A stretch of 64,000 nucleotides of DNA from positions 1 through 64,000 of the IMG/VR virus record IMGVR_UViG_3300030099_004448; one strand, given 5' to 3'. Shown piece by piece: positions 3,953 to 25,500 of this stretch (within the stretch, counting starts at the first letter, position 1; each line of letters begins with the position of its first letter). Source of the DNA: a virus. Under the pieces are notes generated by a model, which was not told the origin of the DNA, made no database searches, and saw only the letters and a list, made by a program, of their open reading frames with translations. Both the position numbers and the translations under genes were made by a program.

Positions 3953-3988
3953 TCTTATACATATATTAAGACCTTTTGATAGCACTAA

Positions 3989-4429: not shown

Positions 4430-6300
4430 TGTCCTTCAATCAGTTTACTAACTTAGATTTTAATGATCTAAGAACACAAATTAAAGATTATCTTAGATCC
4501 AGTAGCGATTTTAGTGATTTTGACTTTGAAGGATCTAATTTTTCGGTCTTAATTGACCTGTTAGCATATAATTCATACATCACTGCGTTCAATACGAACA
4601 TGACAGTGAATGAAGTGTTCCTTGATAGTGCAACATTGAGAGAAAATGTTGTTGCATTAGCTAGAAACATTGGTTATACACCCAGATCGGTTCGTGCAGC
4701 ACGTGCCAGAACCACTTTTAACATCATTTTGACCGATACAACTGATGTTAGAACGGTTACTCTTCAAGCCGGACAAGTTGCATTAGGTAATTTAATAAAC
4801 ACGAGTTATATTTACTCAATTCCTGAAGATTTTACGACTTTAGTTGATAGTCAGGGGGAAGCATCCTTTGATAACCTCGAAATTTATGAAGGAGTTTTTG
4901 TTACAAACACTTTTACAGTCGATTCTTCAATTCCAAATCAAAGATTTATCCTTCCAAACGCAAATATTGACACTACTACGGTTAGAGTCAAGGTAAAAAC
5001 AAATGTCACGGAACAATATGCTCTTTATGAAGACATTTTGAATGTTGATGGCAACTCAAGACTCTTTTTATTGGAAGAAGTTACTGATCAGAGGTATGAA
5101 GTTCGCTTTGGTGATGGAGTTTTAGGTAAAAAACCCTCTTCTGGGTCAATCGTTGAAGTTACTTACATTGTCAGTAATGGTAGGTCTGGAAATGGAGCTA
5201 AAAATTTCACTTTTTCTGGAATTTTAAAAGATAATAACGCAAATCCAATTACATCGGGTATTTCTCTACTGCAAACTATCAGTGAATCTCAAAATGGTGA
5301 TGATATTGAGAGTTTAGACTCTATTAAGTACCTGGCACCCCGTGTATACTCCTCACAGTTCCGTGCCGTGACCGCCAGTGACTATAAAGGACTCATTCCA
5401 TACATTTACACTAACGTTGATTCTGTGACCGCCTACGGGGGTGAGGAGTTAGATCCCCCAGAGTATGGAAAAGTGTTCATTTCTATCAAACCGAGAGGAG
5501 CAAATACTCTTTCTCAAATTACAAAGGAAGAAATTTCAAGATCTTTAAAGCAATACTCCATTGCAGGTATTAAACCCGAACTTATTGATCTTAAGTATTT
5601 GTTTGTTGAATTTGACACTACAATTTACTATAACAAGAACCAAACTTCAGATGTTTCTGAAATTAGAACAAAAGTACTTAATACTTTGACAAATTATTCA
5701 AAATCTAGCGATACAAATAATTTTGGCGGAAGAGTTAAGTATTCTAAGATTAATGCTTTGATTGATGCAACCGATACTGCGATTACATCAAATATTACGA
5801 AAGTAAAAATGCGTAGAGACATGTCTCCCGCATTCAATACTTTTGCAACGTATGAAGTTTGTTTTGGAAACAGAATTTATATCAAGAAAGATGGATATTC
5901 TATTAAATCTTCTGGATTTAAAATTTCTGGGGTAAATGACACTCTCTACATGGGTGACATTGCTGAAAGTGATAGTTCAGGAAGAGTATTTTTCTTCAAG
6001 TTGGTGAATAATATTCCATCAATTGTTAAAGTTAATGCAGGAACTATTGATTATATTAAAGGAGAAATCCTTTTGGACGTTGTAAATATAGAATCTACTG
6101 CGTTAAATAATAATGTTATCGAAGTTGAGGCAGTTCCAGACTCAAATGATATTATTGGACTGAAAGACCTATATCTTCAAATTGACGTTGGCAATTCTGT
6201 GGTAAATACAGTTGAGGATACTATTACCTCAGGCGAGAATACTGCTGCAACATTGTTTGTTCCTACATCTAGCTACCTAAACGGACAGTTCACAAGATAA
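4429..6300 (+). CDS. 6: Baseplate wedge protein gp6
   Basis: A baseplate J-family protein that forms the inner iris of the baseplate with gp7 and gp25. At 623 residues it compares with 660 in T4. The N-terminus has the typical helical start (FTNLDFNDLRTQIKDYLRSS), then LIDLLAYNSYITAFNTNM and LDSATLRENVVALARNIGYTPRS, which are gp6 hallmarks. A conserved central stretch (YLAPRVYSSQFRAVTASDY) follows. The DNA at about 5325-5470 encoding this stretch is visibly richer in GC than the rest of the gene. It overlaps gp25 by one base, and the gp7-like gene starts one base after its stop. The identity is firm. Confidence 0.92.
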   Translation: MSFNQFTNLDFNDLRTQIKDYLRSSSDFSDFDFEGSNFSVLIDLLAYNSYITAFNTNMTVNEVFLDSATLRENVVALARNIGYTPRSVRAARARTTFNIILTDTTDVRTVTLQAGQVALGNLINTSYIYSIPEDFTTLVDSQGEASFDNLEIYEGVFVTNTFTVDSSIPNQRFILPNANIDTTTVRVKVKTNVTEQYALYEDILNVDGNSRLFLLEEVTDQRYEVRFGDGVLGKKPSSGSIVEVTYIVSNGRSGNGAKNFTFSGILKDNNANPITSGISLLQTISESQNGDDIESLDSIKYLAPRVYSSQFRAVTASDYKGLIPYIYTNVDSVTAYGGEELDPPEYGKVFISIKPRGANTLSQITKEEISRSLKQYSIAGIKPELIDLKYLFVEFDTTIYYNKNQTSDVSEIRTKVLNTLTNYSKSSDTNNFGGRVKYSKINALIDATDTAITSNITKVKMRRDMSPAFNTFATYEVCFGNRIYIKKDGYSIKSSGFKISGVNDTLYMGDIAESDSSGRVFFFKLVNNIPSIVKVNAGTIDYIKGEILLDVVNIESTALNNNVIEVEAVPDSNDIIGLKDLYLQIDVGNSVVNTVEDTITSGENTAATLFVPTSSYLNGQFTR

Positions 6301-6301
6301 A

Positions 6302-9300
6302 ATGACAGAAAAGAGAGTTAGCATCAACGAGATTATCGAATCTCTGATTCCTGATTTCCTACTTCAGGATTCTCCTACGTTTACTAGTTTTCTTAAACAA
6401 TACTATAAGTCTTTGGACTATAGAGGTGGTGCGGCTGATCTTGCGGTAAATTTAAAGGGATATAAAAATATTGAGGAGTTTACTACTCAAAATTTAATTC
6501 CATTTACTGTATTACAGCAACAATTAACCATTCTTACAGATACGATTTCGGTAGTTAGTACTGAAGGTTGGCCAGATAAAAATGGTTTGTTAAAAATTGA
6601 TAATGAAATTATTCACTATAAGACTAAAACAGCGACAACTTTTGAAGGTTGTTCCAGAGGTTTTAGTGGTATTGATTCTATCAAATCTGCAGATAATTCT
6701 GAATTTTTAAGTTTTTCGTCAACAACAACAGATTCTCACTCTGCTGGTGTACTTGTTTATAATTTAAGTAATCTATTTTTAAGAGAATTCTTCATTAAGT
6801 TCAAATCTGAGTTTCTTCCTGGATTTGAAAATAGAGACTTTTTTGAAGGCATTGACATTCAAAATATATTAACCAGAGCAAAAGACTTTTACAAGTCTAA
6901 AGGAACAGATACTTCATATAAAATTTTATTTAAACTTCTCTTTGGGGAAGATATTGAAATTATTAAACCACAGGATTTTACACTAATTCCTTCTGATAAT
7001 AATTATTTTATTACTAAGAATGTTCTTTTAGAAAAGGTAAGTGGTGGAGATCCTTTACTTATCAAAGGAAGTCCTCTTTTTCAAGATATAAGCGGAATCG
7101 GTACAGTATCATCTTCCATCTACAACATTGAGTATAGACCTATAGATGGAAAGGACTTCTATGAGGTCTCACTGGACTCTGCGGACTTTAACAACCTCTT
7201 CGAGGCATCTGGAAAAACAAAACTGTTAGAGGACGTTCCAGCGGGGTCTGACACCATTCTAGTAGACTCTACCGTTGGATTTTCAAAAGCCGGTAACGTT
7301 CATATCAAACCAAAAGGTTCTGATTTTTATATCAACGTTTCTTACACCGATAAAACTGTCAATCAGTTTTTAGGATGTCAGGGAATTAATGCTGAGTTAG
7401 AAGTAAACTCTTCTATTGTTGAAGATAAATTTGCTTACAGTTATATTGGATTTGGTCAAACATCTAAGGTAGATTTTTTACTTACAAATGTTGTAGATAG
7501 TGTTGATTTTAGTAACACTTCAAATCTAAAGGTAGATGATCTTGTAACTCTTTCTGGATTTGGTAAAGACCTTAGAGATTTTAGAGAGTTTAATAGTTGG
7601 TTCTATAACATTCCCACAGATCACAGTATTAATACTGTAAATCAGGTATCTTCTAATAGTTACAGAGTTACTTTATTTGATACAATTATTTTTTATATCG
7701 GTGAGAATGTAAGCCTCTCCGATAAGTTTGATAAAACTTCAAATGGAACTATTGTTGATATTGTATATCCAAGTGCTAGTGAAACAAAGAAATATGCCCA
7801 AGAAGTAGTAGTACAGATTACAACACCAAATCATACTATTACAGATTCTGTTATTTTATCAAAAAAAGTAACTAAAGGTAGTCACTACACAAGTCAATAC
7901 GATTACATATCTAAAATTCCTACAGGAGTTCAAAACACTTATATTACTCCCGATGAAAAGAATTTTTATGTAGCATCTACTGGACTGCCAAATTATCAAA
8001 TATTTGCAACCGATACTCGAAAGGATTTAACAGTTGTTGGCGTGAATACAACTGAAATAATTGATTCGACAAATCATGGATTCTATGATGGTGAAAATGT
8101 TTACTTCATACCTACCAATTCTTCTGCTATTGGTGTAGACACTGGATTTTATTTTGTAAGTTATATTAGTGATGATAAGTTATCCTTATCTTTCAGTAAG
8201 GCAGATTCTTTCGGCAACAAACACGTTTCATTTACTCCTAGTGGTGGGTCAGTTGGCCAACTCTTTAGAGCTTCTTATGAGAATAAAGAGATACAGAATC
8301 AAAAACTATTCAAAAAGTTTAGTTTGAAGGAAGAGAAGACTTTCTTCGACGATAAAAACCGCAGATCCACTGATAACAAGTATATTGGAATGCTTGGTAA
8401 TGGTGCGGAAATATTATCACCAACTTTATTTGATGAAAATGTTTACTATGGAAGACTGACTGATATTGAAGTTACTAATTCTGGTGAAGACTATGATGTT
8501 ATTAATCCGCCAGAATTAGAAGTTGTTGACTCTCAGGGATCTGGATGTAAAGCACACGTCAATGTAAGTGGATCTGTTCAGGAAATTAAAGTACTTAAAG
8601 CCGGTGTTGGATACGCAACCAAACCAGAAATTTCCATCAAAGGTGGTAACGGTACTGGTTGCGTTTTAGAATCAAACTTAGTTAAGACTAGAACGGTTCT
8701 GCAATTTAAGCCAACTCAACCTGGTATTGATATTGCTGCAAATACTATCAACTTTGGAGCAAATCATAATTTACAAATTGGCGAAGAAGTCATTTATAAC
8801 AGTAATAAAAACTCCAATATTGGTGGTTTAGTTGGTGACGCACATTATTATGTCTCTACACCTACTGCACAAATTGTAAAACTTCACAGTACTCCACAAG
8901 ATGCTACTTCTGGTATTAATACAATTAGTATTACTGGAATTAGTTCTGGTTTCCACTCTATTGAGAGTCTAACTGTAAAAAATACTATAAGCACTGTTTA
9001 TGTAAAAGAAAAAGGAGAGGGGTATTCAAACAGAGCTGTTAAAATTCCATCCGAAAATACTTTTGGTAATACTGCCGGCATTAACACATATGATTCTTAC
9101 ATCTATGCAAGAAGACATGGATTTAATAATGGTGATATAGTTCATTATTTTACTTCAGATACTCCTCTATCTGGAATGAGCACAACTTCTGATTATTATA
9201 TTACAGTACTTAATGCAAATCAATTTAGAGTTTCTGTTGCAGGAACTATCGAACCAACATCAAACTATACTGAAGGTAACTACGTCAACTTTACCGACAT

Positions 9301-12300
9301 TGGAGTTGGTACTCATACCTTTGCTTATCCAAAAATTACTATCACCATAAACGCTACTTCAGAACAAGGTGATATTGATATTGTAGTTCCAGAACTAGAA
9401 GCTAAGATTCTAGGTTCTATTGATGATGTTTTTGTGGAGGATGGTGGTGTTTCATATGGATGTACTAGTCAACTCAACTATCATAGAAGACCTGATGTAA
9501 GAACTAAACAAATTAGTTCTAGAGCTCTAATCGCTCCTATTATCGTTGATGGTACTATTGTAGACGTTAAGATTATTAATAAAGGTCATGGATATAGACT
9601 TGATTCCGACATTATAGTTACTGGAGATGGTAATTTTGCCGACCTGGTTCCTACGGTTGAAGATGGGAAGATTACATCGGTCAGAGTTCTTAATGGTGGT
9701 GTGGGTTATAATAATGCCAATACTGTACTCACTGTTGAAGCCAGAGGTCGGGACGCCAAGTTCTTGGGCAATGTAACTAACTGGAAAGTAAATCAAGTAG
9801 AAAAACTGAAAGATCAGTTCTCTGATGAAGATGATGGATTCCTACTTCCAAGTAGAAATGAATCTTTAGGACTTCAATTCGTTAATTTCTTTGTTCCTAA
9901 AAAACTTAGAGTTCAATTGAGTGATAACTTTACTCAAAATAATGTAGAAACTCCTAACGATAAAGTACACTCTCCAATCATAGGATTTGCTTATGATGGC
10001 AATCCAATTTATGGACCATATGGATATCAAAATCCTCTTGGTGGAGGTATCAAACAGTTACAGGCTGGATACGAAGTTTTAGTGGATAATACTCCTGGAA
10101 TAAGACCAACATCTTCAAAATTTATTGCTGGATTCTTTGTAAATGATTATGTTTATACAGGAACTGGAGATCTGGATGAAAGTAATGGAAGATATTGCAA
10201 AACACCTGAATATCCTGATGGAGTTTATGCATACTTTGTTTCTCAAACAACAGATCAAAGTGGAAAATCTGAACCAACTTTCCCATATTTAATCGGACCT
10301 TATTTCCATTCACAACCCATTGAAGAAAATTTCTTACCTTCAATAAATCAAGATGTTGATTTTACTGATCATGGTCTAACAAGGAATGTATCTCAATATT
10401 ACATTACCTCAAATAATTCTAAGTATAGACCAATTGATAAAGTTGATGAAAAGTTCAAACAAGAATTCAGAGTTTCTGAAATTAGAACATCTGGTATTCA
10501 AGACACTGCAGTCTTCTCTCCAGGGGATAATTACAAAACTGGTGATACACTTGTAATTAAAAATAGAGGTGAAAGTGGTAGTGGTGCAAATATTGCTGTT
10601 TCAAAGATCAAAGGCAAAACTGTAAGTTCATTCTCTGTGAATGAAACTGTAACTTCTGGTGTAGTATTTGATCTCAAAAAGTCAGATACCATTGAATGTA
10701 AACTTACAGATCCTCATGAAATTTTAAATAATGAAATTATCAATATTTCTGGAATTTCAACAACTTCTTCCAAATCTATTGAAGGTAATAGATCCGTTTC
10801 TATAAGGAACAAAACTACTAAGTTGACTGCTGATATGATCAGCGCCACTGGTGTAACTACGACAATTTATGTAAATGATATAAGTGGATTCCGTGTCGAA
10901 GACATGATTGGAATTGGCACTGAAGTTTGTAGAATTATTAGAATTGATCCAAAGAATAATTCTTTCGATATTAATAGACTTCAGTATCCTGGAATTCATA
11001 CAGCGTTTAATGATAATCATCTGATTAGTTTAAAACCAACTGTCTTTGAGATTAAAATTGGCCCAGATGAAATCCCAAATGATTATGTTTATACTAATGA
11101 AGTAACTTATTTTGATCCAAAAGTTACAGTAGGAACTGGAACTACTGGATCTGTTAGAAGTATATTGGGAGTTGGTGGAACTATTGTTGAATATCGAACT
11201 GTTCCTAATAGTGCAATTTATATTCCAGAACACAAATTCTTTACAGGTCAAGAACTCAAATATCATGTAGGACTTGCTGGCACTTCTCTATACATTAACA
11301 ATGTTGGTTCTGGTGTTTCCATACCACTTACTGATGGTCAAACTGTATATGCAGTGAATCTAGGAAAAGATCATGTTGGTATTTCTACTATCGGATTTAC
11401 TTCAACTACTGGAATTGGCACACAATTAAATGCTGCAGAATTTGTAAACTTTGATTCTAGTTTCCCCTTGGTAGGTGCTGCACACTCTCTTTCTACCACT
11501 AATCTAGAAATTACTGGAACTATTGAAAGATATAGTGCATCTGTCGGTACTGCAGTAAGTCATGGATTGACTTCCAGTGATAGAATAACTTTCTCTATCA
11601 ATAACCGAGAAGTTGATAGTATATCTGTATTCTATAACCCCGTCATTAGAAAAATGATTACGGGTCCAGTATCATTTGGAAGTAGTGATATTTCAATATC
11701 TGATAATACGATTGATCTTTCTGGTGAACAAATCGAACAGGGAGAAAAAGTAGTCTATAAAGCAACCACTCCCGCTACTGGACTTTCTAATGATAAAATT
11801 TATTATGTACTCAAAACTGATAAAGATAAAATTAAGTTAACTGAGAAATTCAGTGATATTGATAAAAATATTGTTATTGACATTGATAGTGTTGGTGGAG
11901 CTGATCACGAACTTTACAGAATAAATCCACCACTCAGATTTATTAAAAATGATACTATTTCTTTTGATGTTTCGGATGTAAGTCTTTCTGAAATGGATCT
12001 TGAATTCTATGAAGATCCAGATTTTACTAGAAGGTTAGAACTTATTGGTAACTCTGAAGATGGATTTGCAATTGAAAGAACTAATAAACCAGGAGAAACC
12101 GATGCTAAGGTAGAAATTAAGACCACAAACAGTCTTATTCCTTCTGCACTTTATTACACACTAATTCCAAAAGGACCTACTGACGTTAGAAAAAATCAAA
12201 TTTCTAGAGATTTGGAAGTAGTAGGTTCTAATAAAATTGATATTGTACCACACTCTTTAAATACGGATTATCTTGTTACTGTAAGTGACAATAGTACTTT

Positions 12301-15300
12301 CTTGTTCAATTTATTGAGAAAACCCAGTGATTCTGAAAAGTCTTCTTATAATAGCGCAAACACAACTGTAACTTATACAACCACTTCAAAAACTGCAGAT
12401 GGACCTATTGATAAACTTAGAATTAACTTTGCAGGAGTTGGATATGACAGACTGCCTATCATTGAAAGCATTAAAACCGTAAATGGAAAGAATGCAAATA
12501 TCAAGTTAATTTCTGACGATATTGGTAAAGTCGAGAAGTATGCAAGAGTTAAAGATGGATTTGATTATCCAACTGATCCAACCTTATCTCCACTTCTGAG
12601 CACTCCATCGGTTGTGGGTATTAAAGATATCAGAACGATTGATTACATCGGTATTACAACTGGTGGTAGAGGATATAATCAAACACCAACTCTTATTGTT
12701 CCTGATAACACAAGTATTAAGTTAATTCCTACATTGGAAGGTGGTTCCATTACCAAAGTTGATGTTGCTCAAAATGCAATTGATTTTAGTGAACCTCTTG
12801 ATATTGTAACTATTCACCATTCCCAGGGATATGATATCGATTTCTTTACCATCAACGGTAGTTTGATAACGGCAGAACTTTCAAATACAGACATTCTAAC
12901 TTCAGGTGTTACTACAGCGTTCCCATTTGATGTTGGAGATGAAGTTTACGTTGAAGGTTGTAGATTAACTGCAGATTCGGATCACTTAGCAAACTTTAAC
13001 TCTGATGTATATGGTTATAAGTTCTTTAAGGTAACTGGAATTAGCACTACAAATAATACCGTCACATATGATATGACTGGTATTGCTACTGGAACATTTG
13101 GTGTATATGAAGATGGAATTACTCTTGGATATCTTGTTAATAAAAAACAAGTTCCACAATTTGAAATGGTATTGAAAGATGATGTTAAGTATCTTTCAAA
13201 AGAAAAAGTTACTGGTCCAACTTTTGTTGGCAGAGTCATGGAAGGTGGATGGGATAATGATCTCAACCAGTTGCGTGTTGGAAATTCATTTGGTCAACTT
13301 AGAGATGGTGATAAACTTACTGGAGAAAGTTCTAAAGTCATTGGAACTATAGAATATTTTAGCATCTTTAACTTACGCTCTACTCTTGGAGTTTCTAGAG
13401 ACAAAGTTGGAGAACTTGATAGATCTGTTGGAATTTTAAATGATTTCCAACAAAGAATATCTGATAATTTCTATTATCAAAAGTTCTCTTATTCAATCAA
13501 GAGTCAACTGAGTTATGATAAGTGGAAAGAACCAGTAAGATCTTTAATTCATCCTTCTGGATTCAAAGAATTCTCTGATTTTGAGTTTATTACTCAGCCA
13601 ACTCCTCAAGAAGTAAGTGTTGGTATTGCTAAGTCTGCCGACCTAAAACCAATTGTTGTCGATAGCACTTCTTCTCTATTGGTAAACGTTGATAAAGAAG
13701 TTTCTTTTAACGATAGAATTGGTTTTAACATGGTTTATGAGGAAGATCTACTTCCAGACGGATCTACTCAAAAAATCTATATGGATGGTGGAATTCCAAT
13801 TAAGAGTTATATTCTGAGTAAAACGAACAAGGTTATTAAGATTGACAATATTGATGATCAATTTGATGGAACATCCGTACAACAATTAGATGGAACTTAT
13901 GCAGACGCTTCTGATCTTTTAGATCTGAATAGACAATTCTTAATTGATGAAGTTCTTGCAAAAGTGAATTATAATTATGTTGCATTCTCCACCAGTGCAA
14001 GTTATGACGAAGCTGCATTTAAAGCAAAAACTGGTAGATTAGTTGATGCAGTTTCTTCTGATCTTAAGTATAATGCAAACAGTCATACTGTTAGTGTTGC
14101 ATCTTCTTATTGGAGTGGTGGTAACTCTATTGGCATCAATACCACTGAAACTATCTACGGATTTAATTATCTGCGTTTCCTTGGACAATATGTTGTAAAT
14201 AACCAGACACCTCCAACATATTATCAAACAGGAACACCTCAACTCTTTAATCTGAGTGTTCTTCAAGATCCTGCAAATGATTATTTCGTTCTTAATCATG
14301 ACGCAAGAGATCTTATTGTTGAAAATAAAAGAGAAATTCTTGATAAGGCTCTTGCATCGGTTGCTGTTCCTTATCCAACATTCATTATTCCAGGTAGTAC
14401 TGCTAATGAGGAACAAAATAGATATGCAATTGGTTATAAACTAGTCAAAGAAAATACACAACAAATCATTAATGAATCATACAACGCTAGTGTAGCTCAA
14501 TATACTGGAATTGCTACTCAAGAAACTAAAGCTAGAAATGTTCTAGCACGATTTGTTGATGCAGTTGCAACTGATCTGTTTACTGGTGGTAACAGATATG
14601 CACGTCAAGAAGCACTTTATTACTTCGATGGACCAATACCTGATAATGACAAGTTAGTCATTAAGGCAGAAGAAACTAATTATCTTTTCAATCAAGCGAA
14701 AGAAAAGATGAGACTTGCCGTTAGAAACGGATTGGGTGTTACTTATGCCGCTTCTGAAGGACCACCAATATATGGTGTTGGTACAACAGTTGGAAATAAT
14801 GAATTAAATACCTGTCAAGATGTCCAAAATACAATTATTACACTTTCTGCTGTTGTAACTGGACCTATTGGTATTGCAACACTCACTTCTTTACCTGCAG
14901 AGAATGTTGGAACTTATTCCACTGGTGTTGCTAAGTGTTTCAGAGATCTTAAATTTATAGTTGATGGTGTTGCACAAGATATTGCATATGACAGCAATCA
15001 ACATACGATAAGAAACACCAAGTTCTACTTCGATGCACAGGGCAATCAAAAGACTGATGGTCTTGTCTATGAAGAAGCTGAGTCTATCTACATCTTCAGA
15101 ACCGCAATGGATTACATGAAGAAAGCGGTTAGAAATGAGTTGTACTATACTGATGATACTATTGTTCCTCTTAATCTACCTGGTGTTGGTGCTAGTGCAT
15201 ACACTGCAAGTATTCAAACCGACATTGAATCCCTAGTTGGTATTCTGACGGTTGCAATTGGAAATAGTAGTCTTGCTTCAATCCCCACGGTTGGATTTGG

Positions 15301-18300
15301 TACAGGTGATTGTGCTAACGTTAGACAGTCACTACGTACCTACGTTGGTATTGCAACTAACATTATTGGAATTGGTACAGATTATGGTCCTGGAACCGTT
15401 ACATATCCTTCCCTGTCTAAGGGTGGAATTATTGTTGGTCTATCATCATTCAAACTTAAGTCTGATGGTCAACCATTGTTTAAGAAGACTTTCGATTCTT
15501 CCGATACTTCTATTGTTAATACGGTAGATAATATTCTTACTTTTGCAAATCATAACTTCCAATCTGGTCAAGAGATGGTTTATAACCCTCTTGGTGGAAC
15601 TAGAATTGGTATTGCAACTACCTCATATGCGACGGGTGATAAAGATATTATCATGGAAGTTGATAATATTTCTGGTAGTGGAGTTAAGAATAATGGAATT
15701 GGTCAACCAGTTACGGTGACGGGTGTTGCAACTGTTCTTGTACCAGCAGGACCAAATACGCAACTCTTCAATGATGTTGTTGGTACTGGAGCTACCAATG
15801 GCGAAGGAGTTGTAGTTGATGTTATCGTGACATATGATCCTTCAAGTGGAGTTGCAATCTCTACTGCTGGATCACTTGTAAAAGCTGGTAAGGGCTTCGG
15901 TGTAGGTGAAGTTGTAACAATTGGCGGTACATTTTTTAATGGATCTTCTCCTGCAAATGACTATACATTTACAGTAACTGCTGTTGGACCTAGTGGAATT
16001 CAAACTGAAGCTAACAATACTTACACAAATGTTCCTGGTGTTTCTGTAGTTGGTACTGGTGCATCCTTTACTATCACTAGAAATAATACTGGACAAATTC
16101 TGGATGTAACCGTAAGTAAGGGTGGTTCTGGATATACCAATACTGGTATTGTTACTATTTCTGGTGCAAATCTTGGTGGCGCTGCTCCTGGTGATAATAT
16201 TACTTTTATTCCAAGTGTTCTCGGAAGAAATACCCTTCCAAATACAGTCTTCGTACTCAAACAAAGTGATTCGGAATTCAAGTTATCTGGATTATCCACT
16301 GCACTTCCTTTTGATATTACTTCTGTCGGTCTGGGAACTGCAACTATTCAACTTAAAGATCCTAATCCAAACACCAGTATTGCAATTGACGGTATTGTTC
16401 AAAATCAACTCAGAAGAAAGAATCTTGAAATTACTCTTGGATCAGCTGTTGGATTGTCAACGAACTTAATTCAAGTCGCTGTTGGTATTAATTCACTTGT
16501 CACTGATGATATTATCAATATTGATAATGAGTACATTTTAGTTAAGTCTGTTGGTACGGCAGGCACCGATATCTTGGAGGTCGAGAGAAACTATCTTGGT
16601 ACGGTGGGTGCAGCATATACCGTTGGTGCTGCTACCACAATTATGAGTGGCGATTACAATATTGTTGGCGATACCATCTTCTTCACTACTCCACCTTACG
16701 GTAAAATTGGTCCAGTTGGTCTTGAAACGGGATCTACTTTTAATGGTAGAGCATTCAGTAGAAGATTTGATCCAGATAAGACTGAAGATCAGAATGTAGT
16801 ATTTGATGATATTTCCCTTGCATTTACTGGTATCGCAGCTACTGAATTTACTCTTAAGGTTCAAGGTGATACTACTACTGCAGCATATAACGATGTAAAC
16901 AAAGGAACTGATATCAATAACAATCCTTTTGTCTTTATCAACAATGTATTCCAACGTCCTAGACAAGACTTCACTGTTGATGGATCTTCTGCAAACGTTT
17001 TGAGATTCCTCACAGGAACTCCAAGTGCAGGTAGAATTTCTAAGGTTGCAATCACCACTGGATTTGGTTATCAAACACCTCTGGCTGCATCTGGTATTGC
17101 AAGTGTTGGTAATGGTATTTCTGGAGTAACTACTTCAATTTCTACAGTCGCTGAAGACGGACAAGCACTAACGTTTAGTGCTGACGGTACTAAATTCCTT
17201 GTTGGTGATAAGACTGGTGATCCTGATGCAATTTTTGTTGGTACTTTATCAACCGCATGGGCAATTGATAGTGTTTCTGGAATTACTTCCGTTTCTTTCA
17301 ATCATGATGGTGGTATACATGGTATGGTATTCAATGATGATGGAACTGAATTGTGGTTCACTGGCACATCAAATGACTCTATTAAGAAAATAACTCTTGC
17401 AACTCCATATGATTATACGACAAATGTAGGAACTTCTACGAACACAGTTTCTTCTGCTGATCTTAGTGCCATTCAGGACCCAGTAGTGAGTGGGCCAATA
17501 TCCCCAAGAGGGCTTGGTATTTCTTCCACAGGATCTTATGTTTATGTACTCGAACTGAATGGTATTGTCCAGGTTAAATTGGACACTCCTTGGGATCTTG
17601 ATTCTTATAATGTTGGACTGAGTACTTATGTTCAAGTTGATGGTTCAAATGGTGTCACGGAGTTTGCTGGTGGACCAACATTGGACAACCCCAGGGGAAT
17701 TACATTTGCTCACAATGACACTTACATGTATCTCGTCGATTTAACCCTCGATGCTGTACTTGAATATAAGTTATCTACTCCTGGTGATGTACGAACAGCA
17801 TCTTATGTAAGATCTCAATCTGCTCCCAATAATCCAACTGATTGTTTCTTTGGGGATAACAAGTTCTTTGTATTGCAGGAAGAATCATTGAGCACTCTTG
17901 ACTATACGGGTCAACCAGGAACAATCTATGATGTTAAGTTGACTGGTTCTGGTAGAGGATATCAATTTAAACCAGGAGTAAGTATTGCATCGTCTATCGT
18001 TGGAACTGCGGCATCTATTACTACAGTCCTGGGCGCTGGTGGTACTGTAACTTCCTTTATTGTGAGTGAAGTTGGTGCTGGTTACAGTGCATCTTCTCCA
18101 GTTTCTCTCCTTGTGACTCAACCAACTGGATATTCAAATATGGATCTCCACTACGCTGGTGTAAGTACTGGTATTGGTATTGAGGCAACTGCAAAAGTTA
18201 AGATAGGAGTTGGTTCAAGTATTGTAGATTTTGAAATCGATGATCACGGAAGAGCTTACAAGGTAGGCGATAAACTAATTGTTCCTGGATTGATTCAAGA

Positions 18301-20935
18301 TCCAAATGCAGGTTCCTTTGAAGAGTTCCAGATTACAGTGGAAGAAGTTCAGACGGATAAGTTTGCTGGATTCTATCCTGGTCAGTTTATCCTCTTTGAT
18401 GATTTCTCATCACAATTCAATGGATTCAGGAAGAAGTTTACTCTAACTCAAACTGAGAACGGAGTTACGGACATCGTAAGTCTTAAGAAACTAGATGGTT
18501 CTGATCTGGTTCTTGAAAATAATCTATTCATCTATGTTAACGATATTCTTCAAGAACCTAGAAAGGCATACAACTTCCGTGGATCTAGAGTTATCTTCAC
18601 TGAGGCTCCAAAACCAAACTCAACATGTACTGTCATGTTCTATAGAGGATCCAGTCTTGATGTTGAAACTGTAATCCCACCAGAAAGCATTAAGAGAGGT
18701 GATGGTGTTATTATTGCAGAGAACAGAAACGATCCTTTTGATAGAGACCAATTTGAAAGAATTGTTAAAGATATTAAAGCATCTGACGAATTCGATACAT
18801 TCTCTTACGCAAGTGTTGGTATTGATACTAATCCTGATAATGTTAGACCTTTGACCTGGAAAAAACAAGAGTTTGATAGAATTATTAATGGTTCTATCAT
18901 TTCTAAATCTAGACCAGGACTTTCTGGAAGAGTCATTCCAAATGCAAGAGTAATTAATGATGTAAAACTTACTGACACTGAAGTTTATGTTGACAACGCA
19001 TTCCCAATCTTCAGTGAACTTGACACAATTTCAGAAGATGATAGAAATATTTTTATAGTAGAAGATAGAACAACTCAAGTAGCAATCGCAACTGCAGTTG
19101 TTTCCAGTGCTTCAACTATCAGTTCTTTTGTTATTAATGATGCTGGTGTAGGATACGCTTATACTGATAGTCCAATTATTAATATTTCTTCTACTGCGAT
19201 TAAATCAAAAGACCCAATCAATGATTGGAAGACAACTTCTGGAATTGGTTCTACCACTATTACGTTTAACTCCATTGAAAAGGGCAATGTATCGATTATA
19301 GTTGGTAGTGGATCCAGATATGCATTTAGTGCTGGTTCTGACGTTTGGTTTGATAATACTCTTGGATTTGGTCATACAATCACTTTCAACTCAGTTGCAG
19401 TTGGTGGAACTAATGTTTACATGGTTGTTGGTCAATATGGTTATATTAGAAGATCTATTGGTTATGGTCAAACCATTGATACTTCCTGGACTACCATGGC
19501 ACTCAAGGAAGATAGATCAATACCCGCTCAGGGAATTGTAAACATTGTTAATAGTACATATGGAGAATCTGGTCAATCTTTCAATGATGTAGTTTATTCT
19601 CCTTTCTTGAATAAGTGGGCTGCAGTAGGAACTGCTGGATCCATCTTCAGTGCAACTGGACTTTCGACTGATAGATTTATAAGTGTAACTTCTAACTCCA
19701 TTCAGAGTATTAACAGCGTTGTTGCAACTGGTGAAGGTATTATTGCAGTTGGAAACAATGGAACTGTATTGACTTCTCCCAATGGTCAAATTTATTCATC
19801 TCTAGGAATCGCAGGATTGGCTGGATTTAATCTGAATAAGATTATTTACTCCAATGGTAAATATGTAATTTGTGGATCTGGTGGTGTTATTGCTACAGGT
19901 GATAAATTCTCGACGATCACAAAAGTTGCAACGAACTTAACTACGGAGATTGTCAGTGTTGATTATCAAGATATCTATGTTGCAATTGATGTAAATGGTG
20001 ATCTATATTATTCATTCGATGCATCAACTTGGATTCAAAGAGACGTTGCAAATGTTGGATCAAACACTTTGAAAGATCTTTCTTTTGCACCAGAATATGG
20101 TGTGGATGGTAGATACATTGTAGTTGGTTCTGGTTCTACAGTCATAATTTCTGATCAGGTGTTCAATAGAGCAACTGGAGAAACATCCCAGACTAGTGGA
20201 ATTATAACTTCTATTACTGTTACCAATGGTGGATTTGGTTATTCTCAAGATAACCCACCAGCTGTATTGGTTGAAAGTCCACGTATTAAGAAAGAGAAAA
20301 TTGATTCCATTAAAGCAGTTGGTGATTTTGGTACAATTATTGGAATTAATACATTCGGCGCAGGAACCGTTGGATTTGGAACCACGACGCCTAAGATGGA
20401 ATTTGTTCTCAAGTCTGAAACTTATGACAATAGTGCTCTTGGAATTGGTTATTCTTCACTGAATACCTTCGGTGTATCTTATTCTCAACTTTCTAAGGGT
20501 GATTATTTTGTAATTCAGAATAGTAACGTCGCAATTGGACGTACATTAGTTGGAATTACTACGCTGGATGGATTAAATGGAATGGCTAATTATCCAGATT
20601 CTATTGTCGGTATCATGCGTACCGAACAAGGATTCATTGATGGTGTCTATCGAGTTGAACACGTAACAACCGCCCAGGCGGGTATTGTTACTGTAACATG
20701 CAACTTTAACAGCAACGATGCTTCTGTTGCTGGTGAATCTATCCAAGTTTACAAAAGAGGTGCTGACGTTAGTGGAGTCAATACCAATGGATTCTATGGA
20801 CACTATAGTTGGGGTAAAATCTACGACTTTAGAAATAGAATTTTAGGAAAACCCCAGTCATTTACAGTTGATAGAGACCAAGGAATTGTTGGATTGGAGA
20901 CTGCTCCATTCGTTTACAGATCTAGGTCAATTTAA
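6302..20935 (+). CDS. 7: Giant gp7-like baseplate wedge protein, 4877 aa
   Basis: Baseplate wedge initiator homologue nearly five times the length of T4 gp7 (1032). Residues about 17-225 (DFLLQDSPTFTSF, then DFYKSKGTDTSYKILFKLLF) match the C-terminal half of T4 gp7. The next piece of that T4 region (SYSIKSQLSYDKWKEPVRSL, then HPSGF) appears only near residues 2365-2430. Between them lie about 2,100 inserted residues of beta modules, including a YHYH-like domain (about 1223-1345; GFAYDGNPIYGPYGY). After residue 2430 come a helical repeat module shared with the long fibre (about 2538-3030), GxGY repeats, a propeller-like region (about 3597-3877) and a second, BNR-like one (about 4310-4620). The frame is open throughout. 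It sits between gp6 and gp8 as gp7 does in T4. Core identity is good; the extra domains probably decorate the baseplate rim or bind host glycans. Confidence 0.85.
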   Translation: MTEKRVSINEIIESLIPDFLLQDSPTFTSFLKQYYKSLDYRGGAADLAVNLKGYKNIEEFTTQNLIPFTVLQQQLTILTDTISVVSTEGWPDKNGLLKIDNEIIHYKTKTATTFEGCSRGFSGIDSIKSADNSEFLSFSSTTTDSHSAGVLVYNLSNLFLREFFIKFKSEFLPGFENRDFFEGIDIQNILTRAKDFYKSKGTDTSYKILFKLLFGEDIEIIKPQDFTLIPSDNNYFITKNVLLEKVSGGDPLLIKGSPLFQDISGIGTVSSSIYNIEYRPIDGKDFYEVSLDSADFNNLFEASGKTKLLEDVPAGSDTILVDSTVGFSKAGNVHIKPKGSDFYINVSYTDKTVNQFLGCQGINAELEVNSSIVEDKFAYSYIGFGQTSKVDFLLTNVVDSVDFSNTSNLKVDDLVTLSGFGKDLRDFREFNSWFYNIPTDHSINTVNQVSSNSYRVTLFDTIIFYIGENVSLSDKFDKTSNGTIVDIVYPSASETKKYAQEVVVQITTPNHTITDSVILSKKVTKGSHYTSQYDYISKIPTGVQNTYITPDEKNFYVASTGLPNYQIFATDTRKDLTVVGVNTTEIIDSTNHGFYDGENVYFIPTNSSAIGVDTGFYFVSYISDDKLSLSFSKADSFGNKHVSFTPSGGSVGQLFRASYENKEIQNQKLFKKFSLKEEKTFFDDKNRRSTDNKYIGMLGNGAEILSPTLFDENVYYGRLTDIEVTNSGEDYDVINPPELEVVDSQGSGCKAHVNVSGSVQEIKVLKAGVGYATKPEISIKGGNGTGCVLESNLVKTRTVLQFKPTQPGIDIAANTINFGANHNLQIGEEVIYNSNKNSNIGGLVGDAHYYVSTPTAQIVKLHSTPQDATSGINTISITGISSGFHSIESLTVKNTISTVYVKEKGEGYSNRAVKIPSENTFGNTAGINTYDSYIYARRHGFNNGDIVHYFTSDTPLSGMSTTSDYYITVLNANQFRVSVAGTIEPTSNYTEGNYVNFTDIGVGTHTFAYPKITITINATSEQGDIDIVVPELEAKILGSIDDVFVEDGGVSYGCTSQLNYHRRPDVRTKQISSRALIAPIIVDGTIVDVKIINKGHGYRLDSDIIVTGDGNFADLVPTVEDGKITSVRVLNGGVGYNNANTVLTVEARGRDAKFLGNVTNWKVNQVEKLKDQFSDEDDGFLLPSRNESLGLQFVNFFVPKKLRVQLSDNFTQNNVETPNDKVHSPIIGFAYDGNPIYGPYGYQNPLGGGIKQLQAGYEVLVDNTPGIRPTSSKFIAGFFVNDYVYTGTGDLDESNGRYCKTPEYPDGVYAYFVSQTTDQSGKSEPTFPYLIGPYFHSQPIEENFLPSINQDVDFTDHGLTRNVSQYYITSNNSKYRPIDKVDEKFKQEFRVSEIRTSGIQDTAVFSPGDNYKTGDTLVIKNRGESGSGANIAVSKIKGKTVSSFSVNETVTSGVVFDLKKSDTIECKLTDPHEILNNEIINISGISTTSSKSIEGNRSVSIRNKTTKLTADMISATGVTTTIYVNDISGFRVEDMIGIGTEVCRIIRIDPKNNSFDINRLQYPGIHTAFNDNHLISLKPTVFEIKIGPDEIPNDYVYTNEVTYFDPKVTVGTGTTGSVRSILGVGGTIVEYRTVPNSAIYIPEHKFFTGQELKYHVGLAGTSLYINNVGSGVSIPLTDGQTVYAVNLGKDHVGISTIGFTSTTGIGTQLNAAEFVNFDSSFPLVGAAHSLSTTNLEITGTIERYSASVGTAVSHGLTSSDRITFSINNREVDSISVFYNPVIRKMITGPVSFGSSDISISDNTIDLSGEQIEQGEKVVYKATTPATGLSNDKIYYVLKTDKDKIKLTEKFSDIDKNIVIDIDSVGGADHELYRINPPLRFIKNDTISFDVSDVSLSEMDLEFYEDPDFTRRLELIGNSEDGFAIERTNKPGETDAKVEIKTTNSLIPSALYYTLIPKGPTDVRKNQISRDLEVVGSNKIDIVPHSLNTDYLVTVSDNSTFLFNLLRKPSDSEKSSYNSANTTVTYTTTSKTADGPIDKLRINFAGVGYDRLPIIESIKTVNGKNANIKLISDDIGKVEKYARVKDGFDYPTDPTLSPLLSTPSVVGIKDIRTIDYIGITTGGRGYNQTPTLIVPDNTSIKLIPTLEGGSITKVDVAQNAIDFSEPLDIVTIHHSQGYDIDFFTINGSLITAELSNTDILTSGVTTAFPFDVGDEVYVEGCRLTADSDHLANFNSDVYGYKFFKVTGISTTNNTVTYDMTGIATGTFGVYEDGITLGYLVNKKQVPQFEMVLKDDVKYLSKEKVTGPTFVGRVMEGGWDNDLNQLRVGNSFGQLRDGDKLTGESSKVIGTIEYFSIFNLRSTLGVSRDKVGELDRSVGILNDFQQRISDNFYYQKFSYSIKSQLSYDKWKEPVRSLIHPSGFKEFSDFEFITQPTPQEVSVGIAKSADLKPIVVDSTSSLLVNVDKEVSFNDRIGFNMVYEEDLLPDGSTQKIYMDGGIPIKSYILSKTNKVIKIDNIDDQFDGTSVQQLDGTYADASDLLDLNRQFLIDEVLAKVNYNYVAFSTSASYDEAAFKAKTGRLVDAVSSDLKYNANSHTVSVASSYWSGGNSIGINTTETIYGFNYLRFLGQYVVNNQTPPTYYQTGTPQLFNLSVLQDPANDYFVLNHDARDLIVENKREILDKALASVAVPYPTFIIPGSTANEEQNRYAIGYKLVKENTQQIINESYNASVAQYTGIATQETKARNVLARFVDAVATDLFTGGNRYARQEALYYFDGPIPDNDKLVIKAEETNYLFNQAKEKMRLAVRNGLGVTYAASEGPPIYGVGTTVGNNELNTCQDVQNTIITLSAVVTGPIGIATLTSLPAENVGTYSTGVAKCFRDLKFIVDGVAQDIAYDSNQHTIRNTKFYFDAQGNQKTDGLVYEEAESIYIFRTAMDYMKKAVRNELYYTDDTIVPLNLPGVGASAYTASIQTDIESLVGILTVAIGNSSLASIPTVGFGTGDCANVRQSLRTYVGIATNIIGIGTDYGPGTVTYPSLSKGGIIVGLSSFKLKSDGQPLFKKTFDSSDTSIVNTVDNILTFANHNFQSGQEMVYNPLGGTRIGIATTSYATGDKDIIMEVDNISGSGVKNNGIGQPVTVTGVATVLVPAGPNTQLFNDVVGTGATNGEGVVVDVIVTYDPSSGVAISTAGSLVKAGKGFGVGEVVTIGGTFFNGSSPANDYTFTVTAVGPSGIQTEANNTYTNVPGVSVVGTGASFTITRNNTGQILDVTVSKGGSGYTNTGIVTISGANLGGAAPGDNITFIPSVLGRNTLPNTVFVLKQSDSEFKLSGLSTALPFDITSVGLGTATIQLKDPNPNTSIAIDGIVQNQLRRKNLEITLGSAVGLSTNLIQVAVGINSLVTDDIINIDNEYILVKSVGTAGTDILEVERNYLGTVGAAYTVGAATTIMSGDYNIVGDTIFFTTPPYGKIGPVGLETGSTFNGRAFSRRFDPDKTEDQNVVFDDISLAFTGIAATEFTLKVQGDTTTAAYNDVNKGTDINNNPFVFINNVFQRPRQDFTVDGSSANVLRFLTGTPSAGRISKVAITTGFGYQTPLAASGIASVGNGISGVTTSISTVAEDGQALTFSADGTKFLVGDKTGDPDAIFVGTLSTAWAIDSVSGITSVSFNHDGGIHGMVFNDDGTELWFTGTSNDSIKKITLATPYDYTTNVGTSTNTVSSADLSAIQDPVVSGPISPRGLGISSTGSYVYVLELNGIVQVKLDTPWDLDSYNVGLSTYVQVDGSNGVTEFAGGPTLDNPRGITFAHNDTYMYLVDLTLDAVLEYKLSTPGDVRTASYVRSQSAPNNPTDCFFGDNKFFVLQEESLSTLDYTGQPGTIYDVKLTGSGRGYQFKPGVSIASSIVGTAASITTVLGAGGTVTSFIVSEVGAGYSASSPVSLLVTQPTGYSNMDLHYAGVSTGIGIEATAKVKIGVGSSIVDFEIDDHGRAYKVGDKLIVPGLIQDPNAGSFEEFQITVEEVQTDKFAGFYPGQFILFDDFSSQFNGFRKKFTLTQTENGVTDIVSLKKLDGSDLVLENNLFIYVNDILQEPRKAYNFRGSRVIFTEAPKPNSTCTVMFYRGSSLDVETVIPPESIKRGDGVIIAENRNDPFDRDQFERIVKDIKASDEFDTFSYASVGIDTNPDNVRPLTWKKQEFDRIINGSIISKSRPGLSGRVIPNARVINDVKLTDTEVYVDNAFPIFSELDTISEDDRNIFIVEDRTTQVAIATAVVSSASTISSFVINDAGVGYAYTDSPIINISSTAIKSKDPINDWKTTSGIGSTTITFNSIEKGNVSIIVGSGSRYAFSAGSDVWFDNTLGFGHTITFNSVAVGGTNVYMVVGQYGYIRRSIGYGQTIDTSWTTMALKEDRSIPAQGIVNIVNSTYGESGQSFNDVVYSPFLNKWAAVGTAGSIFSATGLSTDRFISVTSNSIQSINSVVATGEGIIAVGNNGTVLTSPNGQIYSSLGIAGLAGFNLNKIIYSNGKYVICGSGGVIATGDKFSTITKVATNLTTEIVSVDYQDIYVAIDVNGDLYYSFDASTWIQRDVANVGSNTLKDLSFAPEYGVDGRYIVVGSGSTVIISDQVFNRATGETSQTSGIITSITVTNGGFGYSQDNPPAVLVESPRIKKEKIDSIKAVGDFGTIIGINTFGAGTVGFGTTTPKMEFVLKSETYDNSALGIGYSSLNTFGVSYSQLSKGDYFVIQNSNVAIGRTLVGITTLDGLNGMANYPDSIVGIMRTEQGFIDGVYRVEHVTTAQAGIVTVTCNFNSNDASVAGESIQVYKRGADVSGVNTNGFYGHYSWGKIYDFRNRILGKPQSFTVDRDQGIVGLETAPFVYRSRSI
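13913..15390 (+). repeat. Module in the gp7-like gene shared with the long fibre
   Basis: Encodes about 490 residues that parallel 39672-41244 of the fibre gene in order and wording. Matches are IDEVLAKVNYNY with VDEVVGKVEFNY, QYVVNNQTPPTYY with QYVVNNQTPPTFY, KFYFDAQGNQKTDGLVYEE with KFYFDGAGNPKTDGLVAEE, and GDCANVRQSLRTYVGIAT with ADCADVRQSIYNYVGIVT. Inside it, a unit with the pattern DAV-x-x-D...NxxxRxxxxYFD recurs about three times. Confidence 0.75.
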
Positions 20936-20976: not shown

Positions 20977-22572
20977 ATGCCTGCAATTATATCGGATCAA
21001 TTTAGGATTCTTAACGCCGAGAATTTCGTAAAGAACATCACCGGCGCTGCGAGTACTACTGATAAGTATTATACGTTCATTGGTATGCCCAATGCCTTGG
21101 AACCGCAGGCAGGTGGCACATCAGATTGGCCAACTAATACTCCATCTCCATTAGATGGATTTAAAGAAGAAAACGAAATCAAGCAATCAATTATTGCAAT
21201 GAAACAAATTACGTCGCAAGACGTAAGAAGACTTTGTAGAAAGATTGAATGGGTTTCGGGTACAACATATGAAATGTATAGACACGATTACAGTGTCTAT
21301 AATAGAACTCCAGTTAATGAAGCAACTTCATTATATCAATCAAATTATTATGTTATTAACGATGATTTGAGAGTTTATATTTGTCTGCAGAATGGCACTG
21401 ATCCAGAAAATCCTGCAGGAAAACCATCATACGATGTACCCAATTTCATCGATTTAGAACCAAGAGCTGCAGGTACTTCTGGTGACGGTTATATTTGGAA
21501 ATATTTGTTTACTATCAAACCATCCGAAATTGTAAAGTTCGACTCTATCGAATATATTCCAGTTCCTGAGAATTGGGGTAGTTCCACTGAAACTGCATCT
21601 ACTAAGAATAATGCAGTTGACGGTAAAGTGGAAACAATTATTATTGATAATAGAGGTTCCAACTATCAGCCAATTTCCACATCTTTCTCAAACGTACCAA
21701 TCTTAGGTGATGGTACTGGAGGAAAAGCAACTATTACTATCGATTCCTTTGGAAAGGTTTCTGAAGTATTTGTAACTGATGGTGGTAAAGATTACACTTA
21801 TGGAACCATTCAGTTTTATCCTGGTGCTCCAGAATCAAATGCTGGAGAATCACTTGCTAACTTAGCAAATACAGGAATTGGAACAACTTCATTTGCACAA
21901 TTTAGCGTAATCATGCCACCGAAGGGAGGTCATGGTCATGATGTTTATAGAGAACTGGGTGCATATAGAGTTCTTCTCTTTTCGAGATATGAGACGATTG
22001 AAACTAATCCAGATATCATTCTCGGGAATGACTTTGCTAGAGTTGGTATTTTGAAAAATCCAACTATTCCAAATAGCAATACTGAGATATTAAGTCAAAA
22101 TATGGTTAGTGGTCTTGGTGCCCTTAAGTTATCTGGTGTCACTACAGCAACGACATATGCCGTTGATTCTGTTATTAAACAGACTGTTGGTCTTGGATCT
22201 ACTGCTATTGGATTTGTTGCTTCTTGGGATAAAACAACTGGTGTTCTTAAGTACTATCAACCAACAGGTCTAGCGTCAAGTGAATCTGGATTCAAAATTA
22301 TTCCATTCACTTCATCACCAGAACCAGGTTATGGTGTAACAATTAATTGTAATTCCATCGTAGGACCGGCTCTATCGATTGATACTGCATTCCAAGGTAT
22401 TACTACCTCAATAAATAATAAGATATACCAATTAGGTCTAGACTTTGTAGCTGGTATTGGATCTGCAGAATTTAATAAAAAGTCTGGTGAACTAATCTAC
22501 ATAGATAACAGGGCCCCAATCCCTAGATCCGCTAGCCAAAAAGAAGATATCAAAGTTGTACTGGAGTTCTAA
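20977..22572 (+). CDS. 8: Baseplate wedge protein gp8
   Basis: A wedge subunit binding gp7 and gp10 in T4. Two stretches match T4 gp8 closely: GDGYIWKYLFTIKPS from residue 169 (T4 GDGYVWEYLFEIPPD), and near the C-terminus LIYIDNRAPIPRS followed by IKVVLEF (T4 MIYMENRPPI, then INILFTF). The N-terminus SDQFRILNAENFVKNI also fits. At 531 residues it is longer than T4 gp8 (334). The extra part lies around residues 210-480 and includes a GxxY-type beta repeat (IIIDNRGSNYQP, then VFVTDGGKDYTYG). It has its own late promoter and is followed 6 bases later by the next structural gene. Confidence 0.88.
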   Translation: MPAIISDQFRILNAENFVKNITGAASTTDKYYTFIGMPNALEPQAGGTSDWPTNTPSPLDGFKEENEIKQSIIAMKQITSQDVRRLCRKIEWVSGTTYEMYRHDYSVYNRTPVNEATSLYQSNYYVINDDLRVYICLQNGTDPENPAGKPSYDVPNFIDLEPRAAGTSGDGYIWKYLFTIKPSEIVKFDSIEYIPVPENWGSSTETASTKNNAVDGKVETIIIDNRGSNYQPISTSFSNVPILGDGTGGKATITIDSFGKVSEVFVTDGGKDYTYGTIQFYPGAPESNAGESLANLANTGIGTTSFAQFSVIMPPKGGHGHDVYRELGAYRVLLFSRYETIETNPDIILGNDFARVGILKNPTIPNSNTEILSQNMVSGLGALKLSGVTTATTYAVDSVIKQTVGLGSTAIGFVASWDKTTGVLKYYQPTGLASSESGFKIIPFTSSPEPGYGVTINCNSIVGPALSIDTAFQGITTSINNKIYQLGLDFVAGIGSAEFNKKSGELIYIDNRAPIPRSASQKEDIKVVLEF

Positions 22573-22578
22573 ATCAAC

Positions 22579-25500
22579 ATGGCACAGAATATCAATCTAA
22601 ACGCTTCTCCATACTTTGACGATTTTGATGCGTCAAATAGTTATCAGAGGGTTTTATTCAAGCCAGGAACTCCTATTCAGGCAAGAGAACTTACTACCCT
22701 ACAGTCAATTCTACAAGATCAAGTAGAACAGTTTGGTAAACACTTCTTTAAAGAAGGATCAGTCGTAATTCCTGGTCAAATTGCATATGACCCAGACTAT
22801 TTTTATGTTCAAATTGATGCAAACCACTTAGGAGTTCCAGTAGAAATTTATTTGGATGCTTTGGTTGGTCAAACAATCAAAGGCCAAATTAGTGGTGTCA
22901 AGGCAAAAGTTGTAAATTACATTACCTCAAATACATCTGAAAGAGGAAATGCAACTCTTTATGTAAAATATTCAACTGGCAGTGAGAATGATGAGGGTGT
23001 TAATGGAAATCAAAAAACCGTTTTTGATGCTGGTGAAAATCTTGTAGTTACTCAAGACGTAAAGTATTCACTATCTACTATTAGATCTGAGTCTACTTTT
23101 GCTACTACTCTTCTTACCGATTCAGTCGGCGAGGGTTCTGTTGCAAAAATTGCAGAAGGTGTCTATTTTATTAGAGGATTTTTTGTAAATGTTCCTGCTC
23201 AAGAAGTAATTCTTGATCAATATGGAGATACTCCTTCCTATAGGGTTGGTCTCTTTATAAATGAAGAAATTACGGTTGCATCTACAGAGAATCCAGATCT
23301 ATTTGATAATGCAAGAGGATTCTCAAACTTTGCTGCACCAGGTGCAGATAGACTAAAAATAACTACAACTCTAATTAAAAAGAGTTTAGATGATCTAAAT
23401 GATGAGGATTTTATTGAATTATTGAGAATTGAAAATGGTATAGTTCAAAAATTTGTAAAAGATAATCCATATAATATTCTTAATGATGAGTTAGCTAGAA
23501 GAACATATGATGAATCGGGTCACTATTATGTAACTCCTTTCTCGATTGAAGTAAAAGAATCTCTAAATGATCAAATTGGAAATGATGGTGTTTATTTGCC
23601 AAATCAACAAACACAATCTGGAATAACTCCTTCTGACGATTTTATATCTTTACAAATTTCCCCAGGTAAAGCATATGTTAGAGGATATGAAATAGAAACA
23701 ATTAGCACCACCTCTCTTGATGTACCTAAAGCCAGAACTACAGAATTAAAAGAAAATTCAAGTATTCCATTCACTCTGGGTAGACAATTTGAACTGAATA
23801 ATGTTCATGGTTCTCTACCAGTAGGATTCTCAACGTCAACAGTTTCATTACGTTCGGAAAGAACTGCAAGTGGGGGAACTGCAGCGGGTCTCGAAATTGG
23901 TGTTGCAAGAGTTTATGATTTAAAACTCAAAAATGCTGATTATCAAAATGATGCTACTCCATTCGTAGTATCATTATACGACGTACAGACTTATAATTAT
24001 ATCAATCTTAACTCTACCATTGATTTAACACTACCAGCTTATATCGAAGGTAAGAATAGTAGTGCTCATGGATACCTTGTAGAAGCAGTATCTGGAAGCA
24101 ACCAATTGAAATTGTATCAGGTATCTGGTACTTTTATTCCTAACGAACAGATTAAAATTAATGGTGAAGATGATTCCAGAACCATTAAAGATGTAAGAGA
24201 TTACAGCATGAATGATGTTAAACAACTTCATTCTAGCACCGCAGCATTCACTGCAGATGTTCTTCTGAACAGAGGTATTGCTATTGCTCCTCAAGGAGAT
24301 CAATTTAGTATTACTTCTGGTGGTGTAATTAAATCACCAAATCAAACATTTAGTGTAGGTATTCAAACGGGTGATATTGTTGCATATGCACAAGAAGGCG
24401 ATACTGTACCTACTTTTAACAAAGTAACTGCCGTGAGTGCATCTGCAAAAACAGTTACAGTAAGTGCTACTACATCGGTCACTGGAGTTTCTAATGGTGC
24501 TTTACCTGGTGGTACAATTACAGTAACTAATGTTTTAAAACTAGTTCCTCAGGAATTTAATCTTAATGAAGCATATCTCTATGCACCTCTTGAAGAAATC
24601 AATGTTTCTGATACTAACCTATCGGAGTCTAATATTGTAGTCAGAAAGGCATATGATGTTACCATCTCTGGTAATGGTTTAAATCAGACTCTTGAAACTG
24701 ATAACAGTATGACTCTGGAACCATTTGATGAGGAGGATTATAACCTTACTTATACTAGCACTGGTGCAATTGAAAGTCTTGATAATAGTAAGTTGACTGT
24801 AAATGGTAGAACTATTACGTTACAAGATCTTAGTGTGGCTAGTGGTTCTGCAAGATTAACAGTAACTTTCAAGAAGAAAGATCTTACTCCAAAGAGTAAA
24901 GTATATAATAGAAATGCCGTATTGATTGTAGATAAGTCTTCTAAGGAAGGTTCTGGTACTGCAACCACTTCATTCCAAGATGGTCTTACTTTTGGTAAAA
25001 TATTTGGAACTAGAGTTCAAGATAAACAAATTTCTCTTAATGTACCAGATGTTCAGGACGTTCTTGCTGTATTTGAGTCTAATGACGAGAATGAACCAGA
25101 ACTACCAAAACTCACACTAACCAACTTCAATGCTAATATTCTCAATACTATAAAAGGCGAGTATATTAGGGGTGAAACTAGTGGAGCGGTTGCTACAGTT
25201 GTTGTTAATAACGCAACAAATCAAGTAGATTTTGTTTATCTAAACGAGCAGTCTTTCCAGGTAGACGAAAAAGTAACTTTTGCAGAATCGCAAGTTACCG
25301 CAAATGTTTCTGCAATTTCTGTTGGTGATAGAGATATTCTTCCAAACTTTAGTTTGGTTCCAAATCAAAAACCACAATTCTGTGATTACTCTTTCCTAGA
25401 AAGAAACAGCGATAGTGCTCCGCCAACCAGAAAGTTAAAAATTATTTTTAATCACTATGTTCTAAATGCTGATGATCCTGGCGACTTCGTAACCGTAGAT

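Follow-up and report, generated by a model that had tools for sequence, protein, structure and literature searches.

Cyanophage gp7 carries a T4-type wedge core in two pieces around a conserved insertion of about 2,150 residues

Known gp7-like wedge proteins and the cyanophage locus

The baseplate wedge protein gp7 of phage T4 (1032 aa) joins two gp6 chains through a helix bundle and a triangular trifurcation unit (PMC6300606). It is a very divergent protein (PMC3037559), and the equivalence in wedge position of XM1 gp17, T6SS TssG and the gp7-like part of AlgoCIS Alg12 comes from published structures (PMC10457771, PMC6300606, PMC8894135). XM1 encodes a minimal T4-gp7 orthologue of 242 aa, in which the tail spikes are held by an internal loop and a C-terminal tail (PMC10457771), and the gp7-like part of Alg12 lies exposed at the side, has fibres bound to it and has been called an evolutionary hotspot (PMC8894135); in both systems, it is this wedge protein that binds spikes or fibres. 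Short forms of the gp7 core occur in Stenotrophomonas phage Ps15 (503 aa), in Pseudomonas phage pf16 (523 aa) and in the Pfam family PF23786 (284 positions). Giant cyanophage gp7 genes have been annotated for years, for example in P-SSM2 (5,195 aa). A 2020 study stated that cyano- and pelagimyophages lack T4 gp7 and have VrlC in its stead (PMC7029224). A split of the gp7 core is described in no paper found among the open-access text searched.

The stretch of DNA analysed here (the window, 64,000 nucleotides) is part of a virus record of 238,937 bases, and its genes are ordered as in T4-like cyanophages. Its baseplate cluster has the order gp25-gp6-gp7-gp8, as in S-SSM7 and P-SSM2, and the following genes are relevant here:

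4429..6300, + strand: gp6, the wedge partner of gp7 (phrog_219, E 5.7e-196; Pfam Gp6 domains)
6302..20935, + strand: baseplate wedge protein gp7, flanked by gp6 and gp8, 4877 aa (matches phrog_2885, baseplate wedge, at 2327 bits, E=0)
20977..22572, + strand: gp8 (phrog_438 and PF09215)
22579..30087, + strand: VrlC homologue, 2502 aa (homologous to HTVC008M VrlC, E 2.8e-85)
35830-46575: tail-fibre ORF, 3581 aa, whose segment 39667..41232 (+ strand) is paralogous to gp7 residues 2533-3026

The match to phrog_2885 covers most of the profile, its best stretch aligning ORF residues 1-2524 with positions 5-2548 of 4179, and places the ORF among the giant cyanophage gp7 proteins. In close relatives, the ORF is intact, with single contigs (L005 and L092) that are collinear and gapless at 97-98% identity.

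Using HMMs of the core halves, the gp7 core of about 200 residues was found divided between residues 1-228 and 2377-2430, with a stretch referred to here as the slot separating the two pieces. Domain boundaries in gp7 are approximate.

6302..6475, + strand: core half 1a, the helical N-terminus at residues 1-58 (region 643-689 of the T4 helical domain)
6476..6748, + strand: small insertion within core half 1, residues ~59-149, boundary approximate (MAFFT alignment)
6749..6985, + strand: core half 1b, residues 150-228, with the motif FYxSKGTxxSYKxLFKxLFGE (HMM 74.1 bits; T4 725-760; PF23786 177-219)
6986..13429, + strand: slot, an insertion of 2148 residues, residues 229-2376 (core-half HMMs; collinear and conserved across cyanophages)
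13430..13591, + strand: core half 2, residues 2377-2430, YYQKFSYSIKS...WKEPVRSLIHPSGF (HMM 87.9 bits; T4 848-893; PF23786 205-278)

Within the ORF, the motifs named in an earlier note are present where it put them, at residues 20-24 (LLQDS), 195-214 (DFYKSKGTDTSYKILFKLLF), 2396-2415 (SYSIKSQLSYDKWKEPVRSL) and 2417-2421 (HPSGF). The exact LLQDS identity is a coincidence, for at this homologous position relatives carry INEES, VRSDF and other sequences. The small insertion is found in cyanophages, with a different one in HTVC008M, and is absent from T4, Cr30, phiM7, Ps15 and pf16 in the MAFFT alignment.

Compared with T4 gp7, the window protein has both core halves in the same order and between the same gene neighbours. 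However, T4 has an 87-residue slot and about 640 residues before the core, whereas the window protein has a slot of 2148 residues, nothing before the core and about 2,450 residues behind it. The earlier note, made from the sequence alone, had proposed that a huge insertion divides a conserved gp7 core from within and that a C-terminal extension of about 2,400 residues is present besides it; both proposals hold. It had also taken the two halves to lie side by side in T4. Both are present there and in the same order, yet they are not strictly adjacent, as the 87 residues between them include Pfam domain V (766-861). The insertion, put by the note at about 7100-13390, extends somewhat further on either side.

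The arrangement is read here as a small wedge core to which segments have been added at defined places, a reading given a probability of roughly 0.6. It builds on the homology and order of the core, the slot-length series, the conservation of the slot and the modularity of the C-terminal end, and it predicts an assembly role, a position in the virion and a site of host contact. The core (residues 1-58, 150-228 and 2377-2430) would most likely join two gp6 chains in the wedge, like T4 gp7 and the short orthologues.

A conserved slot between the core halves

The slot that comprises 87 residues in T4 would hold, in cyanophages, a chain of beta domains of about 2,150 residues. By the core-half HMMs, it is 244 residues long in pf16 and 262 in Ps15, the short forms having ~245-270 or about 250 overall, and PF23786 has almost no slot. 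Pelagiphages have 507-545 residues there, Caulobacter phage Cr30 has 550 and Sinorhizobium phage phiM7 804. Among pelagiphages, HTVC008M gp7 (1016 aa) resembles the window protein in having the two core halves, with GxGY units in the slot, but its slot is 524 residues long and its C-terminal part about 200. Wherever a cyanophage sequence is long enough for the measurement, in about 60 sequences, the slot has 2131-2329 residues. Residues 1-2523 of the window protein can be aligned over their full length to S-SSM7, S-CAM9 and P-SSM2, and residues 5-2426 to ACG-2014f, at 28-45% identity. Given this length series and these alignments, the split is a feature of the group and not of the window phage: every measured cyanophage gp7 has it, and the slot lengths are almost the same. 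Comparing the insertion with other cyanophage gp7 proteins, as suggested earlier, gives a collinear block, which keeps its near-constant length from Prochlorococcus to Synechococcus phages. In relatives of ~82% identity, the slot is 81-87% identical and core half 2 96-98%. The giant gp7 proteins of P-SSM2, S-SSM7, S-SCSM2R and S-CAM9 (phrog_2885) share the core, the block order and a slot length within about 8%, but differ in the content and length of the C-terminal extension, most of which is a separate gene in S-SSM7.

Several domains were located within the slot:

8450..9763, + strand: six GxGY beta units, residues 717-1154 (profile scores 19-28, shuffled sequences at most 3.5)
9953..10252, + strand: YHYH domain, residues 1218-1317 (PF14240, E 5.9e-23)
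12401..12712, + strand: two further GxGY units near the slot end, residues 2034-2137 (GxGY profile)

The eight GxGY units emerge only with a profile, as BLASTP comparison of gp7 with itself revealed no self-similarity; units of this type occur in the Ps15, Cr30, phiM7 and HTVC008M slots as well, and none in that of T4. The HTVC008M gp7 gene (L049:6919-9969) carries the annotation 'head closure Hc2', a label that may be explained by the GxGY units that it shares with phrog_460/3465. T4 domains V (766-861) and VI (920-1012) have no Pfam match in the window, and phrog_964 in phiM7 extends to T4 position 832. The candidate homology of the first slot domain to T4 domain V was rejected as a finding, with 184 of 1271 scored shuffles equalling T4, and is kept as a possibility only.

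An AlphaFold model of residues 150-1345 is beta-rich, with a mean pLDDT of 71.7 and much of it at 85-94. Against the PDB, T4-type gp7 ranks first (E 0.009) and fourth (E 0.028) for this model, above the usual threshold, the chains being taken as gp7 from the profile search (9f4a, 5iv5) and from chain lengths, so the ranking may serve as a hint only. A comparison with predicted viral structures gave the phage Bellamy baseplate wedge initiator as the best match. The model of HTVC008M gp7, a natural intermediate in size, has a core of low confidence (pLDDT about 30-63) and matched nothing in the PDB below E 0.35; a poor core could be anticipated of a chain folding together with gp6.

It could be speculated that the slot itself contacts the host, as an arm projecting from the baseplate, with YHYH and GxGY domains that attach to or cleave the host's surface. 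Its length and the beta-rich model would suit such an arm, as would the YHYH domain, predicted to be a tail-associated hydrolase (PMC7824862), and a propeller-type domain lies within the slot of S-SKS1. Yet despite the PF14240 match, the YHYH motif with its metal-binding histidines is degenerate, reading YAYF in 28 of 28 scored relatives, and the predicted metal site may have been lost. Moreover, collinearity and near-constant length are the opposite of the domain swapping seen at the C-terminal end. Host contact by the slot is thus considered unlikely. The conserved order and near-fixed length suggest instead that the slot would be a structural arm or an outer baseplate scaffold, not a variable receptor binder. 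The S-SKS1 domain, a relative of propeller-like domain 1 described below, sits at about window position 1817 and indicates that a slot is able to accept foreign domains.

A modular C-terminal end and the proposed architecture

Behind the core, three larger parts of the C-terminal extension were distinguished:

13898..15379, + strand: tail-fibre-like module, residues 2533-3026 (paralogue in the tail-fibre ORF; phrog_4527 short tail fibre)
17132..17917, + strand: propeller-like domain 1, residues 3611-3872 (visible repeats only; presence varies among close relatives)
19244..20236, + strand: propeller-like domain 2, residues 4315-4645 (visible repeats only)

The tail-fibre-like module starts about a hundred residues behind the core and matches residues 1280-1801 of the 3581-aa tail-fibre ORF at 37% identity (E 3e-74). 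A weak second match pairs residues 2546-2709 of the tail-fibre ORF with gp7 3887-4033. In other phages, the module lies within proteins annotated as short tail fibre or baseplate wedge initiator, and the gp7 alignments show it to be missing from S-SSM7 and S-CAM9. It is 89-90% identical in the ~82% relatives, and given this conservation, it may be structural.

The two propeller-like domains have the lowest identities within gp7. Both are named for their visible repeats alone, and neither has a Pfam or PDB match supporting a propeller fold. Domain 1 is cleanly missing in two relatives (L100 and L103) that are 74-81% identical around the gap, and unrelated repeats occupy the same spot in S-SSM7 (about 1,800 residues) and S-SCSM2R (about 540 residues). 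A DNA direct repeat at this junction was considered and rejected, with only an 8-base match there and no sign of a mobile element. Domain 2 evolves fastest, at 63% identity in the ~82% relatives compared with 82-88% in neighbouring parts. Coverage of the C-terminal extension by relatives is patchy, and the extension is the modular, polymorphic and exchangeable part of gp7. In S-SSM7, gp7 comprises two genes with a virion gene of ~340 residues between them (3007 + 340 + 3001 aa; L003:20001-39095), and the gp7 end is a separate gene in the same arrangement in contig L019.

Soon after the core, the extension would have a copied tail-fibre module, and beyond it GxGY units would frame interchangeable propeller-like or repeat domains; the extension most likely serves to dock fibres or to make contact with the host surface. 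By analogy with the pattern in the published T4, XM1 and AlgoCIS structures, the core would correspond to the wedge, the slot to an arm and the C-terminal end to the fibre or host part. The earlier proposal had been that gp7 may be a platform for host contact if the loop leaves the baseplate surface; the loop as the likely host-contact part is not supported by the comparison, and host contact is a better fit for the modular extension, with its tail-fibre paralogue and propeller-like domains, than for the collinear and conserved slot. A more far-reaching idea, which is doubtful at present, is that gp7 might be the scaffold of the whole outer baseplate in cyanomyoviruses: the slot arm would replace part of the T4 periphery, and a C-terminal receptor-binding cassette would swap domains with the tail fibre, so that the wedge protein would partly set host range.

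These results map the domains of a protein that ranks among the largest in abundant marine viruses, and they show that a wedge core can accommodate an insertion of 2,150 residues whose length hardly changes throughout a virus group. In looking for host-contact parts, attention moves from a conserved loop to a modular C-terminal end marked by whole-domain differences and fast divergence, and the long-standing question of how these phages recognise picocyanobacteria becomes testable at named residues.

Two halves of one core, as judged by sequence

A plain sequence search finds a single weak match to T4-type gp7, around the KGT motif. For more sensitive searches, the two core pieces were joined on paper in eleven phages other than T4 and made into a profile. 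Searched against 177,635 PDB sequences, this profile gave significant matches to T4-type gp7 only (E 1.5e-12 and 6.9e-12), as two collinear stretches at T4-type residues 647/650-760 and 855/862-892. XM1 gp17, TssG and Alg12 have no sequence match to the composite profile, the search for gp17 and TssG extending to E 10. By core homology to T4 gp7, as well as by its place between gp6 and gp8, the window ORF is a T4-type gp7.

When rejoined, the window halves form one PF23786 match, from 92-199 to profile positions 177-278, at 35.7 bits (curated cut-off 27), whereas singly they score 19.6 and 19.1 bits on adjoining parts of the profile. Ten decoy joins, nine to other pieces of the window and one to a shuffled second half, scored 20.2-20.8 bits and ended at the first half, one of them nine positions further. 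With the match running across the junction and the decoys negative, sequence comparison suggests one core domain made from both halves, and the single Pfam match is consistent with the halves packing together. Alternatively, the halves may be separate domains, each homologous to T4 gp7 and unpacked, so that the core is not really split; packing is seen in no model, and domain V already divides the halves in T4. However, a single alignment matches them to neighbouring stretches of the same short Pfam family and scores 15 bits above the decoy joins, and they co-occur in the same order in every gp7 long enough to check, making separate domains quite improbable. That gp7 is absent, with VrlC in its place and the ORF an unrelated giant structural protein, is hardly conceivable, for although it agrees with the published statement (PMC7029224) and with the short resemblance found by plain search, it conflicts with the profile match and the gene position, and a VrlC homologue occurs in addition to gp7 in both cyano- and pelagimyophages. 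Judged by homology, gp7 and a VrlC homologue are both present in the window, which contradicts that statement.

Some relatives differ in how the gp7 gene is laid out. In S-SKS1 (L162, record 130100-140291, minus strand), gp7 runs across several reading frames and is largely unannotated, reflecting either a real split or sequencing errors. Frame breaks in the metagenome contigs L057:4001-4669 (at the end of core half 1) and L014:15543 are probably sequencing errors. In P-SSM7 (L046:12168-28747), the annotated gp7 has about 7,124 aa and the core begins roughly 550 residues in, a possible third growth point at the gp7 N-terminus, as in T4.
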